From assembly GCA_030529665.1 (NCBI GenBank), contig JAUMWL010000005.1, positions 1 through 39,945 on the forward strand: 39,945 nucleotides of DNA. The letters are read 5' to 3'. Each line of letters opens with the position of its first letter. The first letter of the stretch is position 1. A program made the translations under genes and the position numbers. This stretch comes from Coriobacteriales bacterium. Its GTDB lineage: Bacteria; Actinomycetota; Coriobacteriia; Coriobacteriales; Atopobiaceae. Of this stretch, positions 702-33,757 are shown in pieces. The notes under the pieces are model-generated. The model was not told where the DNA came from. It saw nothing but the letters and a program-made list of their open reading frames with translations, and did not search any database.

Positions 702-3700
702 TTACCTTACGACGACCTTACCGGTGACGGTCTTGGTCGCCGCCTTGTAGTTGCCGTTGCCGGCGGCGGTAACCTTGATCTTTATGGAGTAGGTCCCCTT
801 CTTGGTTCCCTTCTTTACGGTAACCTTGCCGGTGTTCTTGTTTATGGTGAGTACTGCGGATCCGCCCGCCTTGGCGTAGGTGACCTTGCCCTGAGCCTTG
901 GAGACGGTGACCGGGCACTTGACCGCGACGGCCTTCTTCTTGAGCGTAGAGAAGCTCGCGGTCTTTTTGCCCGCCTTCACCGTCATGGGGTTGGCAGCCT
1001 TGTTCACGACGACCTTGTACGAGACCGCCTTCGATCCCGCCTCGTAGTTGGCGTTGCCAGCCGCCGTAACCTTTACGATGACGGCATACGTGCCCGCCGA
1101 GGTTGCCTTTGGTACCGTGACCTTGCCGGTGCTCTTGTTCACCAAGAACTTCTTCGCCGTCGCGTTCGTGCTGGCGTTCGCGTAGGTCACGGCGCCATGG
1201 GCCTTGGAGACGGCCACGTTGCCGGCCGTGGCGACGGCCTTGGCCGGGCTGTAGGTCGTGGTCACGCCCGCGTGCTTCGCGCTCGCCTTGATTGGGTTGG
1301 ACGCCTTGGCGATGGTTACCTGCGCCGTGACCTTGGCCTCGTTGTAGTTGCAGGTACCAGCCGCCGTAACGGTGATGGTTGCCGTGCCAGCGCCAACAAT
1401 GGCCACCTTGCCGGCTGCGTCCACGGTGGCGACCTTGGCGTTAGAGCTCTTGTACGATATGGCACCGTCGACCGACCAATCAAGAACATCGAGCTCGAAC
1501 GGCTCGTCACCATACGTTGCCCTAAAGACGTCTTCCAGGAGGTCGATGTCTTGGTCTGCCTTGGCGATGGCGAAATCTTTGCGTGCGGTACCGGTATAGT
1601 CGCCACAACCAGTTACGACGACAGTTGCCGTACCGGCGTTGACGTTGTTCTGGTATGCAACTTCGTAGTCAAAAGGCCAGTCTAGCTCAGCACCGTTGAG
1701 CGAAACCGTGACGCCCGGCTCGAGCTCCGACCCATCATACGTGAAGCTCTCTTGGTCCAATTCAATCGTGGCACCCGAGATGTTGGTGGGCTGAGGGCTG
1801 GCAGACCCCACAATCTGGAAGGTGGCGGTCCTCGAACCGGAGAAGTTGCCCTTGCCGGTAATGGTTATCGTGGCGGTGCCCGGCCCCACGTTGTTGCTGT
1901 ACCCGAGCGTGTAGTCGGTACCTTTGTCGAGCGCCTTGCCGCCAAAGGTCACGGCGGGCTCGGGCATGAGCTCCTTCCCCGTCGCCGTCTGGTCCGCGAT
2001 CTGCCCCACCGTCACCGCGTCGTCCGCGATGGACAGCGGCGAGATGGTGAACTGGGTGGAGAGGTTGCTGGGCTGCAGGTAGTTTCCGCTGCTCGCCCCG
2101 CCGAACGAGATGGTCGCGGTCGCCGTGTGCGTGCCGGCGCCCGTCGCGGCGCCCGACACCGTGGCGGTCACGGCCTCGCCGGGGGCGGCGTTGCCCACCG
2201 TGGCGGCGGGCTTCTTCGACGTGCCGTCGTAGGCGAGCTGGGTGCCCGTCCACGCGAGCGTGAGCTGGCGCGGCGAGATGGTGAGGTCCGCGCTCGCGCT
2301 GCCGGTGTAGTCGCCCTGGCCGGTGGCGACCACGGTGACGGCGCCCGCGCTCGCGAGGTCGGACGTGGCCTCGCCGCCGCGCCGGTACGACACCGCGTAG
2401 TCGCCCGCCCCGAGCGCGGTGCCGCCCAGGGTCACGGTGACGGCCGGCTGGTGCGCGGTACCGTCGTAGGTGAAGGAGCTCGCCGAGAGGGTCACGGTCG
2501 CGTCGGAGATGTCATTTTGCCCCAACGGATCCATGTCGCGTGTTTCGGTATCGTGGCATACCGAGCACTCGCGCGTCTCCTCGCCTGCCTGGGTTGCCGT
2601 TGGAGGCGTGGTAACATGCCAGTCTCCCCACGTGTGCTGACCAGTCGCGGGAATCTCAACGTTCTCCGTCTGGGTCGCAAACGCCGCGTTCAAGAAGGTC
2701 GCGGTGTAAGTCAACACGCCCGGTTCCTTACAGGTCGCGGCCGCTGTGACCTCCGAGGTCGTGCTCACGGTCTCGGTTTCTTTATGCGCGGAGTTGTTTG
2801 CGCACACGCGTGTGGCGGTCACGCTACCCTTATTAGCTGCCCACACGTACTCGGCGGCACCCCAGTTGTGGCCGCTTACCGTAATGGATACGGTACCGTC
2901 GCAGGAATTGTAGTTGGTCGTGTCACTAGGCGTGAACGTCCAATGGTAGGTGTTCGTGCCATACGACAAGATCGTCTCCGTAAGGCTTAGGGTTCCCGCC
3001 ACGCTGGTATTGGTACGGCTCAACACAACCTTGGAGACGTCGAGGTCATCCACGACCGAGCCGGCCGTTACCGTTCCCAAATTGGGAGTTGCCTTGGAAA
3101 TTGTAAAGTCTGCCGTCGCAGTACCAGACAAATAGGTGTCCGTCTCGGCTATGGTGGCCCTCACTATGTAGCTGTTTGCGTTGGTGGGAACAGCATTCGT
3201 GTAGGTGTTGTCGTCCGAGCCGGCAACCTTGTACTCAAACGTCACGGTACCGTTGCCAGGGTTGCTGCCCTCGGTTAGCTGCGGCGTGTTGGCGGCTTGG
3301 CCATACGTCCAGCCCTGTATGGTGACCTCGGGAGAGATGCTTTGCTTCTCTGTTGTCGGGTCATTCGCCGGATCATAGTTTGTGCTGGAAAGCTCCAAGT
3401 CAGACTGTGGATATGTCGATTTGGTCTCACCATCGTACATAAAGTAGTTCTTTCCCGTCTTGCTAAGCGTGGTGAAGCCGTAGTAGTTATTGGCATAGCC
3501 GCCTTCCACGTAGCCCTTTAGGAACAAATAGTCGGGATTGCCTGCCGAGCCCTCGTCGCAGTTGGTTACGTCTATTAGGTAGTTCTTGCTATCGGGCATG
3601 CGCACAACGTTCCACATGTGGCCACCCATCTCGCTGGTGTTTAGAACGTTGCCCAGAAGCCCCGTAACCGTTAGACACTCAACGTCGGTCCTGCCCGACA

Positions 3701-4712
3701 GGTCGCACAGATACTTGAACGCCTTGGAGTAACCTTCGCACACCACGTCGGTAGTAATATCTCCGTCAAACACCCACACGAGCTCCCAGGGATTGTTGGA
3801 TCCATAGGTGGCAATGCTGCCAGCCTCCAGAGCGGCATCGTTGTATTCCACCAGATTGCAAATCTCCTGCTTGTAGGACGCCAGGCGCACAGACGCCACC
3901 TCGTTCTTGTGGTCGTTTGCAATGGTAGTCGCACGATTGACGGCCGTTTGAACAGACTGAGCAAGAGTCGTGTCTATATTGTAGTCACCCGCCGCATAGT
4001 TAGAGGCGACCTTGATACGAAGGCTTGCCTTAGTAAATATAAAGTCTTCGCTTGAATAACTGTAGCCAAACGATGTCCCGTAGGCTCTACCGTACCAATA
4101 CATTTCGTAGGGACAGTCCGCCCAAACGGCATCCATCGCCTTGTCTACAATCGTGCCGACCTCTTGTGACCACTTGGCACTAATGGCCTCCTTAGCTTCT
4201 TGCGTAATCACGCCGTTCGACAACGGATTGGCAATGCCAACCTCGGCAAATTTCCACTTATCCTTGCTAAGCACCTCAGACAAGGGCAGCTCGATTACAG
4301 TGCTTGATTGCTCGCCGAGGGCAACCTGCTGCACGACCCCTTTTATGACGTCATATACTGCGTACTCTGATTCTGTGAGATACTCCCCCGCGCTTTGTAT
4401 GGTGACATCAAAGTCATCTGCAGATTCGGGCAGCTTCATATCAAACTGCTGCTGAATGTAGGATTTAAACAACTCGTCGTTACTGACGCCGGAATCCCCA
4501 TCCCGCACTTCTATGAATCCAGAGGCCTGGGAACCTTGGTTGGCAACAGTCCCCTCAGAGTCCCCGGGTTCTACCACGATTCCCTCTTCGACCTCGGTGA
4601 GCATCTCCGCAAGGGCCGGAACAGGCACCGACCCCCAGGCCAACAAGAATGCCAGCAGGACCATAAACGCCGTTCGTGGCACGTTGAAACAATTGGGTCT
4701 ACGCTTGTTCAT
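702..4712 (-). CDS. Large secreted transglutaminase-like protein with Ig-like/MBG repeats
   Basis: A 1336-residue exported protein. The start is ATG at 4712 because AGAGGAG lies just upstream; the longer frame to 4745 has no such signal. Residues 1-35 are a Sec signal peptide (basic start, hydrophobic core, PALA cleavage). A transglutaminase-like core follows with a candidate Cys325 (VCEGYSKAF), His365 (GGHMWNVV) and Asp381 (LIDVTNCD) triad, so it could be a protease or cross-linking enzyme acting outside the cell. From about residue 450 on there are Ig-like modules: FTYDG-type MBG repeats, and near the C-terminus two Lys-rich copies ending in KVTAAGNxNY. No LPxTG, membrane helix or choline-binding motif is seen at the C-terminus, which simply ends VVVR. 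The stretch coding for the middle repeats (about 1980-2490) is far richer in GC than the transglutaminase part. Confidence 0.85.
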   Translation of the reverse strand: MNKRRPNCFNVPRTAFMVLLAFLLAWGSVPVPALAEMLTEVEEGIVVEPGDSEGTVANQGSQASGFIEVRDGDSGVSNDELFKSYIQQQFDMKLPESADDFDVTIQSAGEYLTESEYAVYDVIKGVVQQVALGEQSSTVIELPLSEVLSKDKWKFAEVGIANPLSNGVITQEAKEAISAKWSQEVGTIVDKAMDAVWADCPYEMYWYGRAYGTSFGYSYSSEDFIFTKASLRIKVASNYAAGDYNIDTTLAQSVQTAVNRATTIANDHKNEVASVRLASYKQEICNLVEYNDAALEAGSIATYGSNNPWELVWVFDGDITTDVVCEGYSKAFKYLCDLSGRTDVECLTVTGLLGNVLNTSEMGGHMWNVVRMPDSKNYLIDVTNCDEGSAGNPDYLFLKGYVEGGYANNYYGFTTLSKTGKNYFMYDGETKSTYPQSDLELSSTNYDPANDPTTEKQSISPEVTIQGWTYGQAANTPQLTEGSNPGNGTVTFEYKVAGSDDNTYTNAVPTNANSYIVRATIAETDTYLSGTATADFTISKATPNLGTVTAGSVVDDLDVSKVVLSRTNTSVAGTLSLTETILSYGTNTYHWTFTPSDTTNYNSCDGTVSITVSGHNWGAAEYVWAANKGSVTATRVCANNSAHKETETVSTTSEVTAAATCKEPGVLTYTATFLNAAFATQTENVEIPATGQHTWGDWHVTTPPTATQAGEETRECSVCHDTETRDMDPLGQNDISDATVTLSASSFTYDGTAHQPAVTVTLGGTALGAGDYAVSYRRGGEATSDLASAGAVTVVATGQGDYTGSASADLTISPRQLTLAWTGTQLAYDGTSKKPAATVGNAAPGEAVTATVSGAATGAGTHTATATISFGGASSGNYLQPSNLSTQFTISPLSIADDAVTVGQIADQTATGKELMPEPAVTFGGKALDKGTDYTLGYSNNVGPGTATITITGKGNFSGSRTATFQIVGSASPQPTNISGATIELDQESFTYDGSELEPGVTVSLNGAELDWPFDYEVAYQNNVNAGTATVVVTGCGDYTGTARKDFAIAKADQDIDLLEDVFRATYGDEPFELDVLDWSVDGAISYKSSNAKVATVDAAGKVAIVGAGTATITVTAAGTCNYNEAKVTAQVTIAKASNPIKASAKHAGVTTTYSPAKAVATAGNVAVSKAHGAVTYANASTNATAKKFLVNKSTGKVTVPKATSAGTYAVIVKVTAAGNANYEAGSKAVSYKVVVNKAANPMTVKAGKKTASFSTLKKKAVAVKCPVTVSKAQGKVTYAKAGGSAVLTINKNTGKVTVKKGTKKGTYSIKIKVTAAGNGNYKAATKTVTGKVVVR

Positions 4713-4742
4713 GAGCAGCTCCTCTTCTCGCGCGATGTTGCC

Positions 4743-4761
4743 CATACAACTTCATTGTATG
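4743..4761 (-). promoter_or_regulatory. Inverted repeat and possible -10 region upstream of the surface protein gene
   Basis: CATACAA/TTGTATG form a 7-bp inverted repeat with a 5-base gap about 30 bases before the start codon. On the minus strand it overlaps TACAAT, a good -10 match, but no good -35 lies 16-18 bases upstream. It could be an operator overlapping a promoter that needs an activator; this is a weak call. Confidence 0.3.
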
Positions 4762-22308: not shown

Positions 22309-23562
22309 ATGGCATGGAACACAAACGTACTCGTAGGACAATCCGGCGGACCAACGGCTGCGATAAACGCAAGCTTGGCAGGCGTGTTTGATACGGCGCG
22401 CGATCTTGGCGCGCATGTGCTGGGCATGCGCTACGGCATAGAGGGGTTCTTGGCGGGACGAATCGTGCACCTCGACCGTACGCTGGGAGACCCCATGGAC
22501 GTTGAGCTGTTGCGGCGCACGCCTGCGAGCTTTTTGGGCAGCTGTAGGTTTAAGCTGCCCCAGCCCGACGAGGATCCCGCGTTCTATGAGAACGCGTTCA
22601 AGAAGTTTGCGGACGCACGGGTCGGCGCCGTCTTCTATATTGGTGGCAACGACTCCATGGACACCATCGACAAGCTCAGCCGATGGGGAAACGCGCACAA
22701 CAGCCCCATTCGCTTTATTGGCATTCCCAAGACCATAGACAACGACCTTGTTGGCACCGACCACACGCCCGGATATGGCAGCGCCGCAAAGTACATTGCG
22801 ACCTCCATGCGTGAGATAGCGCGCGACTCCAGCGTCTATGACCTCAAGAGCGTCACGTTTGTGGAAATAATGGGCCGTGACGCCGGTTGGCTCACGGGAT
22901 CGGCGTGCTTGGCCGGAACGCAGGGCAACCCCTGCCCCGACCTCGTGCTTCTTCCCGAGGTCACGCTCGACCAAGAGGCCCTGCTCAATCGCCTGGCACT
23001 GCTTTTGGACAGAAAGAACACCATCGTGGTCGCGGTAAGCGAAGGCGTGCGGCACCGCGACGGCACGCTGTTGTGCGAGGCGGCTGCCGAGGCGGCGGAT
23101 GGCACGCGTCTGGATGCGTTTGGGCACGTGGCCTCTCTTTCGGGCACCGGACGTTACTTGGCAAGCGTCACGCGTGCCGCGCTGGGATGCAAGACCCGTG
23201 CCATTGAGCTCTCCACCCTCCAACGTTGCGCCAGCCACGTTGCCAGCGCGACCGACCTTGCCGAAGCCTACTCGCTTGGTGGGGCGGGCGTCATCGAGGC
23301 GCACAACGGCAACACCGGCATGATGAGCTCCATCCGGCGCATCTTTGACAAGCCCTATTTGTACGACACCGTTATGACCCCCATTGAGGACGTTGCCAAC
23401 AAGGAGCGCAAGGTTCCGCGCGAGTTCATATCGGTGGACGGAATGAACGTGACGGCGCTGTTTGAGCGTTACGCCAGGCCACTCATTGAGGGGGAGGTGT
23501 CGCCCACCTATCTGGGCGGTGTCCCCCATCACATTACCCCGCTTGACGGCGACCGCGCATAG
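22309..23562 (+). CDS. Phosphofructokinase, probably diphosphate-dependent
   Basis: A 417-residue phosphofructokinase for the committed step of glycolysis. QSGGPTAAINASL is the N-terminal phosphate loop, GGNDSMDT (residues 112-119) stands where ATP enzymes have GGDGS, and PKTIDNDL (140-147) has Lys141 where ATP enzymes have Gly. Both changes are the accepted signs of pyrophosphate use, making it a diphosphate-fructose-6-phosphate 1-phosphotransferase. The MGRDAGWLTGSACLAG substrate motif is intact. The start is ATG at 22309 after AAAGAGG. It stands alone on the plus strand and is followed by a perfect GC hairpin and a repeat array. Confidence 0.88.
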   Translation: MAWNTNVLVGQSGGPTAAINASLAGVFDTARDLGAHVLGMRYGIEGFLAGRIVHLDRTLGDPMDVELLRRTPASFLGSCRFKLPQPDEDPAFYENAFKKFADARVGAVFYIGGNDSMDTIDKLSRWGNAHNSPIRFIGIPKTIDNDLVGTDHTPGYGSAAKYIATSMREIARDSSVYDLKSVTFVEIMGRDAGWLTGSACLAGTQGNPCPDLVLLPEVTLDQEALLNRLALLLDRKNTIVVAVSEGVRHRDGTLLCEAAAEAADGTRLDAFGHVASLSGTGRYLASVTRAALGCKTRAIELSTLQRCASHVASATDLAEAYSLGGAGVIEAHNGNTGMMSSIRRIFDKPYLYDTVMTPIEDVANKERKVPREFISVDGMNVTALFERYARPLIEGEVSPTYLGGVPHHITPLDGDRA

Positions 23563-23581: not shown

Positions 23582-23619
23582 GGTTCGCGCGCCTAAACCG
23601 CGGTGTAGGCGCGCGAACC
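23582..23619 (+). terminator. 14-bp hairpin after the phosphofructokinase gene
   Basis: GGTTCGCGCGCCTA and TAGGCGCGCGAACC are perfect arms with a 10-base loop, 20 bases after the stop codon. There is no T tract, so it may be a stability element or a Rho-type pause rather than a classical terminator. Confidence 0.5.
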
Positions 23620-23627
23620 ACAGCGAA

Positions 23628-23893
23628 AACCTCCGCTTTGATGCGCAGCAAAGCGATCGCGCGCAAAAGCGGAGGTTACATAGGCCAAAACGCCCTGCAA
23701 ACCTCCGTTTTGACGCGCAGCGTGCATAGCGTGTGCCAATACGGAGGTTTGGATGCCTCCAAAGGTGATTTAACCTCCGCTTTTGCACACGCCGCGACTT
23801 GCGCGCGTTAATACGGACGTTTCGGCGCCCAAACTGGTCGCGTTACCTCCGGATAAACGCGCGACGCGGTCGCCCGTCTACAGCAACGCCACA
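23628..23893. repeat. 72-bp-period palindromic repeat array, locus 1
   Basis: Four units begin with AACCTCC-type arms at 23628, 23700, 23772 and 23844, a period of exactly 72. The first three are 50 bp long, each opening AACCTCCGYTTT and closing with its complement (GGAGGTT at 23677 and 23749; a mutated GGACGTT at 23821). The intervals are exactly 22 bp and weakly alike (GGNGCC..AAA). The fourth keeps only the left arm (TACCTCCGGATAAACGCG) and runs into the 3' end of the neighbouring minus-strand gene. Related units lie at 28996-29106. Confidence 0.8.
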
Positions 23894-24864
23894 CGTGGCA
23901 CCGCAAATCCACTTGGAATGCCAAAGCTCGACATCAAATGGCAGAACTTCTTTGCATTGAGCACATCCGCATACGAGAACCGCATCACCTTTGCATTCGC
24001 TCCGGTTAGCCGCGACTCTCTTAGCCGTTCATCCGCCAACACGTCCACAACGTCTCGCCCGTTCGTCATCTGTGGGTTGCGGTACTTCTCACGCCCATCG
24101 AGCTCACCCACCACATTCCCACTTGGTAATTTCCAGTAGAAGTCCACATAGTATCGGTCCTCTTTGTCTACTGGATCGCGAATCTCGTATTGCAGCGTCG
24201 GGACCATGTATCCATTTCGGATTATCATGGCCCGGGCAACCGACTCGCCGCCATCCGCAGCCTTTGGATTTGCAAGCATGGCAGTTTCTGCCGCACGCCA
24301 TGAATCCTTGTTTCTGCTGCGTATCGTCTTCATCTGGCTTGCCAAGTCTTCGGATTCCACACCATACATCCGCAACGCAGAGTCCGCAATCGCTAGACCG
24401 GCAGGAAAGCTACAAGAGCATGTGCAGTCATACACCGTTCGAGCCAGCGAGGTCACCCTTATTCCGTCAATCACGTTGGTTTTGTCATTGCTAATAATAT
24501 GGCGCTCAAAGCTCGCATTGCTCCGCGCATGGGATTCTCGACTGCACGCAAGGTGCACTCTGCCATACAAACGATACGACACTTCCAGTCCATACATCGT
24601 AGCAGCACAGAAGGACGCAAACACCCAGCTTGGATGCAGCTGGCTCAATGCACGCAGGCGATGCCTTTCTTGTTCCGCGGGTTTTAGCTGACTCCAGAGC
24701 TCTGGCAGGGCAAACACGCGTGGGGCGGGAGAAATGAGCGCCCCACGCTTGCATGCGTCACGCAACCGATGAGCCTCAGACGGCGACCTTGCAAACAGGC
24801 ACGATCCCGCTCGATGCGCCTCGCACAATCGATTGAACAGATCCTTACGTATGCCTCGTTCCAT
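23878..24864 (-). CDS. AbiEi-like/DUF559-type protein with a PD-(D/E)xK nuclease-like domain
   Basis: A 328-residue protein with the layout of the actinobacterial AbiEi-antitoxin-like plus DUF559 family. An N-terminal winged-helix-like part (LISPAPRVFALPELWSQL), a middle ASFCAATMYGL...RVTSLARTVYDC region, and a C-terminal Vsr-like endonuclease fold. The latter has Asp241 (YYVDFYW), then VVGELDGREKY with Glu254, Asp256 and Lys260, a PD-(D/E)xK arrangement. No AbiEii nucleotidyltransferase partner is adjacent, so a toxin-antitoxin role is not supported here. The start is ATG at 24864 with GGGAGG upstream. Its last codons overlap the degenerate end of the repeat array. Function unknown. Confidence 0.7.
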   Translation of the reverse strand: MERGIRKDLFNRLCEAHRAGSCLFARSPSEAHRLRDACKRGALISPAPRVFALPELWSQLKPAEQERHRLRALSQLHPSWVFASFCAATMYGLEVSYRLYGRVHLACSRESHARSNASFERHIISNDKTNVIDGIRVTSLARTVYDCTCSCSFPAGLAIADSALRMYGVESEDLASQMKTIRSRNKDSWRAAETAMLANPKAADGGESVARAMIIRNGYMVPTLQYEIRDPVDKEDRYYVDFYWKLPSGNVVGELDGREKYRNPQMTNGRDVVDVLADERLRESRLTGANAKVMRFSYADVLNAKKFCHLMSSFGIPSGFAVPRVALL

Positions 24865-25162
24865 GGCACCTCCCGATCGATCCGTATTTGGAAGGGCATG
24901 ATACCCCAAGGCCTATTGCGCACTTTTGCAGCCAGCTCGCAGCCATTTTGCAGATAAAAACATAAGCATGGTAAGAAGCGCCGCGTTTGCAGACGTATAA
25001 CCATGTGTCGCGCATAGGTATTTAAACCAGTCCAAAATGCAGGGAACCGTTTGGGATTTTTTCGATGGACGGCAGCGAGGAACAACGCAGAGCCCAACAA
25101 AACAATGGCACGCGCCCTCATCAAGAGGCGCGTGCCAAAAGCAGTGTTGTTCTTGCCGTACG
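24865..25162. other. 298-base intergenic region
   Basis: No credible gene: the reading frames crossing it lack ribosome sites and family resemblance. The only structured feature seen is the barstar terminator at its right side. Confidence 0.5.
25096..25137 (-). terminator. Intrinsic terminator after the barstar gene
   Basis: A perfect 11-bp stem TGGCACGCGCC/GGCGCGTGCCA with a 10-base loop (25106-25137), followed on the minus strand by TTGTTTTGTT. It lies 25 bases beyond the barstar stop and closes the ribonuclease/inhibitor operon. Confidence 0.85.
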
Positions 25163-25441: not shown

Positions 25442-26104
25442 CTAATACAGCCGCTCAAACGTGTTGTAATGATCATCGGTGTAGTATATGAGCCCGTCAT
25501 CTGAGTACAGGATGCGCTTGGAATTGCGCGACCTGCCTCCGTCGTAGTCTATGTCGCACTCGTACCACGTGCGTCCGCTGGCTTTTGGCAACCTTCCCTC
25601 GCGGTTGGAGAACCTGTCTCCTCCTATGGACTTGCCCGGACATGCTTGGGCCAGCGTGAGACCCTTTTTCTTCCAGCCAGCATTCTCTGCCTCGCGCTTT
25701 GTGATGTAGTTGCTCGGCAGATGGGCATAGGTATGGATGTACAGCGCCACCTCGTCCTTGGACGTGTACTCGCCGTCCTCGTCAACAAGGACTTCGATTC
25801 CCTCGTCGGCCGATCCCTCCTCTGAGGCAGAGACGTCATCCTCCGTGGCAGCGGGCGCTTGGTCTTCTTGGGCGTCTGCGCCTTTCTCGTCTGCGCCTTC
25901 CTCTGAGGAAGCGTCTCCCTCAATGGGTACCTCCTCGACAACTTCGTCCTGTTGGACCAGCTCCTCTTGCTCGGCAACTGCCGTCTGCGAGTCGGACGCG
26001 CTCTGTTTGTCCCCAGCAGATGCCGAGCACCCTCCGAGCACCAGGTTTCCCGTAAGCACAAACAGCAGCGCGATGAATAATGCCAGTAGCCTTGTCTTCT
26101 TCAT
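25442..26104 (-). CDS. Barnase-like ribonuclease anchored as a lipoprotein
   Basis: A 220-residue protein. Residues 1-26 are a lipoprotein signal (KKTRLLALFIALLFVLTG, lipobox LGGC with Cys26). Residues 27-112 form an acidic, low-complexity stalk (many Glu, Asp, Ala, Ser). The last 105 residues are a barnase domain in which the catalytic set is intact: Lys136 (NYITK), Glu182 (TWYECDI, general base), Arg193 and Arg197 (RNSKR), His212 (DDHYNTF, general acid), with GKSIGGDRFSNREGRLP also preserved. Classical barnase is a freely secreted 110-residue enzyme, so surface tethering on a stalk is unusual. The start is ATG at 26104 with AGAGGTG upstream; barstar follows directly. Confidence 0.92.
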   Translation of the reverse strand: MKKTRLLALFIALLFVLTGNLVLGGCSASAGDKQSASDSQTAVAEQEELVQQDEVVEEVPIEGDASSEEGADEKGADAQEDQAPAATEDDVSASEEGSADEGIEVLVDEDGEYTSKDEVALYIHTYAHLPSNYITKREAENAGWKKKGLTLAQACPGKSIGGDRFSNREGRLPKASGRTWYECDIDYDGGRSRNSKRILYSDDGLIYYTDDHYNTFERLY

Positions 26105-28556: not shown

Positions 28557-28871
28557 CTACACCTCCTCGGCGGCATGCTCAAGGCCTATGCCGATGAGCA
28601 GCCCCACATGGTCATCGGCAAGGGAATAGATCACACGCTGCCCGTCTCTGCGCGCCGTGACCAAGCTTCTGTCGCGCAAGAGCCTCAGCTGATGCGAAAT
28701 GGCAGATTGCGACACGTTACAGGCTTCCTGCAGCTCAGAGACGCTCTTGTCCCCTTCCATAAGCGTGGATAAGATCAGAAACCGCGTGAGGTCCGAGAGT
28801 GCGTCGAATATTTGCGTGGCTCCATACACCACGGCATCGTTGCTCAAAAGCTCCTTGATGCCACTGTCCAT
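28557..28871 (-). CDS. ArsR/SmtB-family zinc-responsive repressor
   Basis: A 104-residue winged-helix repressor. The DNA-recognition stretch VSQSAISHQLRLLRDRSLV (residues 53-71) matches SmtB closely. In the C-terminal helix, Asp86, His88, His99 and Glu102 occupy the four zinc-ligand positions (D, H, H, E) of the SmtB alpha-5 site; the alpha-3 cysteine motif of cadmium sensors (CVCD) is absent. It should therefore repress its own operon and release DNA when zinc is high. The start is ATG at 28871 with GGAGG upstream; longer frames ignore this. It is followed by the exporter gene. Confidence 0.92.
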   Translation of the reverse strand: MDSGIKELLSNDAVVYGATQIFDALSDLTRFLILSTLMEGDKSVSELQEACNVSQSAISHQLRLLRDRSLVTARRDGQRVIYSLADDHVGLLIGIGLEHAAEEV

Positions 28872-28880
28872 ACCGTCCTC

Positions 28881-28906
28881 CATATATGTACATCTGTTCA
28901 TGTGTT
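28881..28906 (-). promoter_or_regulatory. SmtB-type 12-2-12 operator
   Basis: On the minus strand AACACATGAACA-GA-TGTACATATATG is an imperfect 12-2-12 inverted repeat; its left half is the same as the well known SmtB operator half-site with TGAACA. It lies just downstream of the -10 box, covering the expected transcript start, so the repressor would block initiation. Confidence 0.75.
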
Positions 28907-28942: not shown

Positions 28943-28995
28943 CCCCACAAACCACAATTGCCAATTGCACGAGGTGCTTGATGTCGCGCGCTAAA

Positions 28996-29106
28996 GCGGA
29001 GGTTAGGAGGCCAATATGGGCACCAAAACCTCCGGATAAACGCGCAACCACCCCGGCGCGCGCAAAAGCGGAGGTTTGGAGCCGCAAACTGGCCTGCTAA
29101 CCTCCG
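28996..29106. repeat. 72-bp-period palindromic repeat array, locus 2
   Basis: Right arm GCGGAGGTT (28996-29004), a 22-bp interval, a complete 50-bp unit 29027-29076 opening AACCTCCG and closing GCGGAGGTT, another 22-bp interval, and a left arm AACCTCCGCTTT from 29099. Spacing is identical to locus 1 (23628-23893). The array lies between the rpoC terminator and the promoter of the zinc operon. Confidence 0.8.
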
Positions 29107-29117
29107 CTTTGGCACAC

Positions 29118-29151
29118 AAAAAGGGGACGCACCCCCTGCGAGCGCGTCCCC
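29118..29151 (-). terminator. rpoC terminator
   Basis: An 8-bp perfect stem GGGGACGC/GCGTCCCC with a 13-base loop, followed on the minus strand by TTTTT. It lies 50 bases after the rpoC stop and ends the rpoBC transcript. Confidence 0.85.

Positions 29152-29200: not shown

Positions 29201-33757
<4,557 letters not shown>

Follow-up and report, generated by a model that had tools for sequence, protein, structure and literature searches.

Like the repeats described here, BIMEs sit past gene 3' ends, and we know of no sequence relationship between the two. The likeness extends to regularly spaced repeats of alternating orientation, as set out for BIMEs (PMC2817692), and the difference lies in the arms, which in our family are, by inspection, not themselves palindromic. 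Bertels and Rainey 2011 (PMC3116915) describe REPINs as doublets of REP sequences that form hairpins. Our family resembles them in its conserved inverted arms set at a fixed distance around a variable, less conserved middle, its predicted hairpin, its ordered tandem clusters, its extragenic position (as judged by codon-usage gene prediction) and its dispersal in numbers above chance. It differs from them in that no adjoining RAYT was found, no palindrome was seen inside each arm, and copies are far fewer than those given there for P. fluorescens SBW25 (PMC3116915). GTAG- and CGTC-tagged REPs are similarly short palindromic repeats located mostly downstream of genes, with stems of 5-13 bp and loops of 2-20, and CGTC families also occur without a dedicated transposase (PMC3733652). 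The stem geometry here is different, the arm consensus shows no stem by inspection, and there is no consistent GTAG or CGTC tag: the outer ends read GYGYGY, each facing its complementary end, and CGTC occurs in some arms only. Among the open-licence papers listed, we found nothing on this repeat family itself beyond work on REP, BIME and RAYT.

The window, that is, the whole 39,945-nt stretch of DNA that was analysed, holds two arrays, locus 1 at about 23628-23863 and locus 2 at about 28985-29118 (Table 1). Both are built from a 62-nt unit in which inverted arms, YGYGYGYnAAAnCGGAGGTT and its reverse complement (consensus of 25 units), enclose a variable 22-nt centre, and which recurs in arrays with a period of 72 nt. 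At locus 2, the core CGGAGGTT (28997-29004) is followed after 22 nt by AACCTCCG (29027-29034), and 34 nt further on the pattern repeats with CGGAGGTT (29069-29076), 22 nt and AACCTCCG (29099-29106). Locus 1 follows this metric too and comprises a half unit and three L-R units, of which the third is degenerate. The first-pass annotation, which reported at 28996-29106 an array after rpoC with the arms and geometry of a first one, is thus confirmed at both loci; since each arm runs outward as GYGYGYnAAAn, the array is wider than that interval. Its 22-50-22 spacing is real, the 50 nt being the 34 nt plus two 8-nt arms, but its description of the array as a pair of doublets needs amending, the basic unit being a single L-22-R doublet. 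All eight places that have just two arms and no gap are L-R, with a spacing of 22 nt (six places) or 21 nt (two), and the sole R-L two-arm place has a run of N separating its arms.

Table 1. Arrays, neighbouring genes and signals in the window, and sites of a second dispersed repeat at other loci of the same genome
Feature	Position	Strand	Remarks
Phosphofructokinase gene	22384..23562	+	PF00365, E 3.2e-48; 3' end 66 nt from array 1
Locus 1, half unit (lone R arm)	23628..23645	.	arm scan
Locus 1, unit 1	23658..23719	.	arm scan; 63-nt match to L007, stops at unit edges
Locus 1, unit 2	23730..23791	.	arm scan
Locus 1, unit 3	23802..23863	.	arm scan; degenerate arms CGGACGTT / TACCTCCG
Uncharacterised gene convergent on array 1	23878..24909	-	3' end at 17 nt from array 1; matched in 10 of the 16 genomes of the genus, counting its own
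ArsR-family (HTH_5) regulator	28557..28883	-	PF01022, E 4.9e-11; 5' end towards locus 2 array
Locus 2, unit A (L arm, 22-nt centre, R arm)	28985..29046	.	arms 28987-29004, 29027-29044
Locus 2, unit B	29057..29118	.	72 nt after unit A; arms 29059-29076, 29099-29116
rpoC intrinsic terminator	29123..29151	-	T-run abuts locus 2 array
rpoC	29201..33757	-	3' end towards locus 2 array; C-terminal part has close homologues in genus
Second dispersed repeat	L003 1842-2124; L006 1561-1665; L007 1153-1391; L010 1879-2068; L014 2294-2524; L035 1936-2296; L036 26-369; L157 861-1175

The rpoC terminator and the promoter that were said to flank locus 2 are both where the annotation had put them, the promoter-like site before the ArsR-type gene lying at 28942-28914 on the minus strand (one found vs. 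0.2 expected). Its "zinc operon" stands in part: the neighbour is an ArsR-type regulator with a heavy-metal P-type ATPase, and zinc specificity is unsupported. The product of the gene convergent on array 1 has no match in Pfam, and nothing in the window matched an Rfam family at the gathering cut-offs. A barnase-type ribonuclease (PF00545) is encoded at 25442-26104 on the minus strand, adjoining the metal ATPase gene, and no immunity gene was identified for it. Beside array 1, at 23582-23619, there is a 19-nt inverted repeat, 95% complementary (GGTTCGCGCGCCTAAACCG), unlike the array 1 arms.

A chance pair of arrays was ruled out by counts in shuffled and random windows. AACCTCCG matches the window nine times vs. 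1.35 expected (maximum 4 in 100 shuffles), and 11 arms score above 13.5 bits, vs. a mean of 0.05 and a maximum of 1 in 100 first-order random windows, with an 18-position matrix whose training arms include the window's own. In the genome from which the window comes (G000; 3.18 Mb in 315 contigs, a fragmented assembly, 88% complete), exact units number 27 vs. 1 for a reversed control pattern, a looser unit pattern gives 29 vs. 4, a 46-nt pattern with three mismatches 26 vs. 0, and an exact one-arm pattern 68 vs. 0. When two mismatches are allowed in an 18-nt arm, the excess is nearly lost (60 and 53 matches, the controls giving 52 and 41) because such matches are mostly chance, and old copies can therefore not be counted. 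Scanning the window together with 27 G000 loci by means of the matrix returned 90 matches above 9 bits, some isolated and weak, and clustering of arms above 13.5 bits (for the window, all matches above 9 bits) gave 27 places on 25 contigs. The earlier proposal of a dispersed family is thus upheld, and the genome-wide unit and arm counts exclude that locus 2 is a mere copy of locus 1.

All but one of the 27 places lie outside genes predicted by codon usage, the exception being L160, a single arm of 14 bits that overlaps a weak gene prediction and is probably a chance match; the predictor may miss other genes, since it missed the one at 23878-24909, which was added from genus homologues. One place (L154) contains a run of N, and lone or odd arms occur (L156, L157 and half units in arrays). 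A hand tally that leaves L160 out counts 20 3' and five 5' gene ends no more than 150 nt from an array (two-sided binomial p = 0.004, or 0.007 when one of the paralogous pair L031/L033 is dropped, against a crude 50:50 null). The observation that the arrays lie just beyond a gene 3' end, made for the two window loci and true of both, also applies genome-wide, with 3' ends within 150 nt at 17 of the 27 places; many arrays lie 17-50 nt after a stop codon. Some arrays (L001, L006 and L153) lie between divergent genes.

How widespread is the family? Across 140 genomes of the bacterial family, arms number 68 in G000, 85 in G066, a different species of the same genus in which one array has up to 17 arms with a 72-nt period, and 3 in G065 (one locus). 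All others have at most five, which controls likewise reach. Exact 8-nt arms on both sides, a pattern that misses many units (there are 100 arms in part of G066), occur in 20 units of G066 and one of G065, and in none of 13 of the 15 other genus genomes. Since several units lie near contig ends in the G000 and G066 assemblies, arrays may be undercounted. Genes with related 3' parts were seen at window 702-4745, L005 846-1943, L034 1727-3199 and, in G066, at L119 and L250; the one in the window has weak MBG and Ig-like matches and possibly encodes a surface protein. Arrays come directly after the L005 and L034 genes, near the L250 gene and more than 1 kb from the L119 gene.

Insertion boundaries were checked against relatives, as the first-pass annotation had suggested. 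At the rpoC site of G065, G076 and G074, rpoC and the regulator are kept, other inverted repeats are present and the family is absent, all by inspection, but these sites are too diverged to serve as an empty site, and none with clean insertion boundaries was obtained among the relatives compared. In G062 and G063, further coding-like sequence lies between rpoC and the regulator. In G064, the same position after rpoC is taken by another palindromic array (L141), whose arms are of the CCGAATAACCTCCC / GGGAGGTTATTCGG type. The same geometry with other arms looked promising at first in G065 and G076, with 63 and 40 matches to GTGTGCCCGGTGGGGA at up to two mismatches (controls 2 and 0). In these arrays, however, 64-nt direct repeats flank a single central 29-nt pair; the architecture is thus a different one, and the idea was dropped. 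The L-N-R unit pattern for GTGTGCCCGGTGGGGA-type arms matched in 0 of 16 genomes. An array family with arms GTGYRCNCGGTGGGGA, a central 29-nt inverted pair and 64-nt direct repeats was recorded at L217-L246 (G065 and G076), and G000 has one central pair of it (L247, on C131). The same 8-nt arms also occur in genomes of other genera (G099, G103, G125, G128, G130 and G135), where the hairpins are longer, perfect or nearly so, and of a different kind. A phage origin was dropped, since 18 viral-contig stretches with one 8-nt arm pair each show no flanking arm pattern by eye and were therefore taken as chance matches, and a 201-nt query of locus 2 had no match among plasmids.

The metric of the unit is fixed while its centre is variable. 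In G000, the distance between L and R starts is 40 nt in 31 of 34 units and 39 nt in three, the centre is 22 nt long in 31 of 34, and the distance from R to the next L start is 32 nt in 20 of 24. In G066 (100 arms on 11 loci), the corresponding distances are 37 nt (36 of 40) and 35 nt (42 of 44) with 20-nt arms, their sum being again 72, and four neighbouring arm pairs are in the same orientation. Arms from both species can be aligned in a single register, the clearest difference being at one position, G in G000 vs. A in G066. When 465 pairs of units were compared in both orientations, centre identity was below 0.6 in 895 of 930 comparisons, in which arms average 0.78; in unrelated units, centres are near random (bin means 0.25 to 0.50) and arms still 0.78. 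Because the paralogous flank of three arrays, about 125 nt with 12-16% divergence, already has 5-6 gaps, a free centre length should have varied once identity was lost. In the nine closest comparisons (centre identity of at least 0.9), a small number from a scan that favours good arms, arms are at 0.917 vs. 0.939 for centres, and arms are therefore not visibly protected after insertion. This pattern fits elements that are neutral after insertion, with arms kept only in copies that spread.

Boundaries of common sequence coincide with the unit in several cases. Matches of 61-63 nt ending at unit edges join single units in otherwise unrelated surroundings (L006/L008, L007/window 23656-23718 and L011/L032). 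Between the paralogous loci on C236 and C244, the difference is exactly one 72-nt unit, and between L036 and L007 it is one 73-nt unit; the repeated L arms are identical in both pairs. L006 and L014 have 1.5 units in common, with high identity through one unit, the spacer and the L arm that follows, and diverge inside the next centre. These one-unit differences and this mosaic fit recombination or slippage between arms. Common blocks of one subfamily reach past unit edges at L001, L010, L031, L033, L037, L154, L155 and L158, and the flanks of L007, L036 and L157 are also common beyond the unit, so some of the spread may be duplication of larger pieces. A second dispersed repeat (GTGTGCTGTGATCGC...AGTGTGGCTTGC, in both orientations) was noticed near several G000 arrays, with a period of about 41 nt as judged from 82-nt offsets (Table 1).

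A mobiliser was sought, and none was found in G000, a genome 88% complete, where Y1 transposases are represented by just two fragments and the surrounding 1.9 and 2.4 kb contain no arms. Arm searches of G000 revealed no autonomous element with these ends and no arms bracketing a transposase gene. A link to RAYT was pursued in the genus via arms around its 33 Y1 matches, present in 15 of 16 genomes, and was given up: no L-R unit occurs around the 27 that were examined. The three G066 Y1 loci have no adjoining unit (at L204, a single GGAGGTT lies some 240 nt beyond the gene). Other exact palindromes occur within 300 nt at nine of the 14 loci examined for them. L209, L210, L216 and other genus Y1 loci have RAYT-type genes beside long perfect hairpins (e.g., GGGGGAGTACCCC and GGGGACAGTCCC), unlike the family studied here. 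In G066, one open frame (L203 1737-3095) fuses a Y1 (RAYT-like) transposase domain and a GrpB domain. Since neither a RAYT flanked by the repeat nor a consistent GTAG/CGTC tag was found, we describe the family as one that works like a REPIN, and do not class it as REPIN.

On balance, the arrays are probably copies of a short, non-autonomous REPIN/BIME-like element that spreads as a doublet and expands by recombination between arms. The replicating unit would be an inverted doublet of about 19-nt arms, which when single-stranded would fold into a 62-nt hairpin with internal loops. We infer a protein supplied in trans that would recognise the two arms at their fixed distance and copy or insert the doublet into intergenic DNA, where insertions beyond gene 3' ends would be tolerated by the host. 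Once units stand in tandem, recombination or slippage between identical arms would add or remove units of about 72 nt and mix centres, giving rise to arrays.

Could the units instead act as RNA, as bidirectional terminators or as 3'-end hairpins protecting mRNA? Their placement past 3' ends, with many 17-50 nt after a stop codon, speaks for it, and so does the folding, which is strong on either strand (mean z -5.0 and -5.2, with z < -2 in 28 and 30 of 31 units) but partly built in, the units having been picked for their complementary arms. In the doublet hairpin predicted for these units with RNA parameters, all eight core pairs form in 25 of 31 units. However, arm pairs covary no more than chance: the outer arms change independently of each other (254 complementary pairs, compared with 247.2 after permutation, sd 7.6), position 0/39 pairs in five of 25 units vs. 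9.3 expected, and there is thus no sign of selection on RNA pairing, nor do centres covary (120 complementary pairs vs. 136.4 permuted). Centres do form better folds than their shuffled versions (mean z -1.05, 31 units), which goes with a common weak palindromic consensus, because complementarity within and between units is equal (0.398 vs. 0.401). A scan of 3-8-nt loops, which is blind to a 22-nt-loop hairpin, detected no terminator-like site in array 1 or inside array 2, and some arrays, as noted above, lie between divergent genes. Hence, we consider a role as RNA improbable.

Arrays might also be binding sites of a chromosomal nucleoid or regulatory protein, with the 40/32 spacing reflecting the geometry of a bound oligomer and host selection keeping the arms. 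Spacing that is held while centres diverge would be expected of such sites, and the independence of the outer arm parts (254 vs. 247.2) is what separate double-stranded sites would show. We nevertheless think this unlikely, because the family is numerous in only two of 140 genomes, nearby gene ends are mostly 3' (20 vs. 5 by hand tally) and recent copies keep their arms no better than their centres (nine comparisons). Less probable than either of these is a MITE with the terminal inverted repeats of a DDE-type insertion sequence that was lost or went unassembled, the 22-nt centre being the remainder between the ends. A 62-nt element with inverted ends of about 20 nt that read YG...CR would suit it, TG...CA occurring in only four of 25. 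Against it, arm matches within one mismatch either have a partner at unit distance or sit in arrays, single remnants excepted, no lone arm pair was seen around a gene, and no arms were seen to bracket a transposase gene. There is no consistent target duplication at the eight two-arm places either (a 5-nt direct repeat at L008, a 4-nt one at L002, and none of at least 4 nt at six), and a centre held at 22 nt would be unexpected of a decaying MITE.

Within the favoured reading of a REPIN/BIME-like doublet, a more specific and still doubtful version is that of a RAYT-free family, in which a different, undescribed enzyme would measure the arm distance and copy the doublet, the 72-nt metric being inherited across species and centres left free. 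RAYT transposases are closely linked with REPINs and REPs. A family that follows the REPIN doublet logic in two species, with mostly unlike centres and no RAYT found beside it, would give a test case for whether a fixed arm distance, and not a particular transposase, is the defining feature of such elements.
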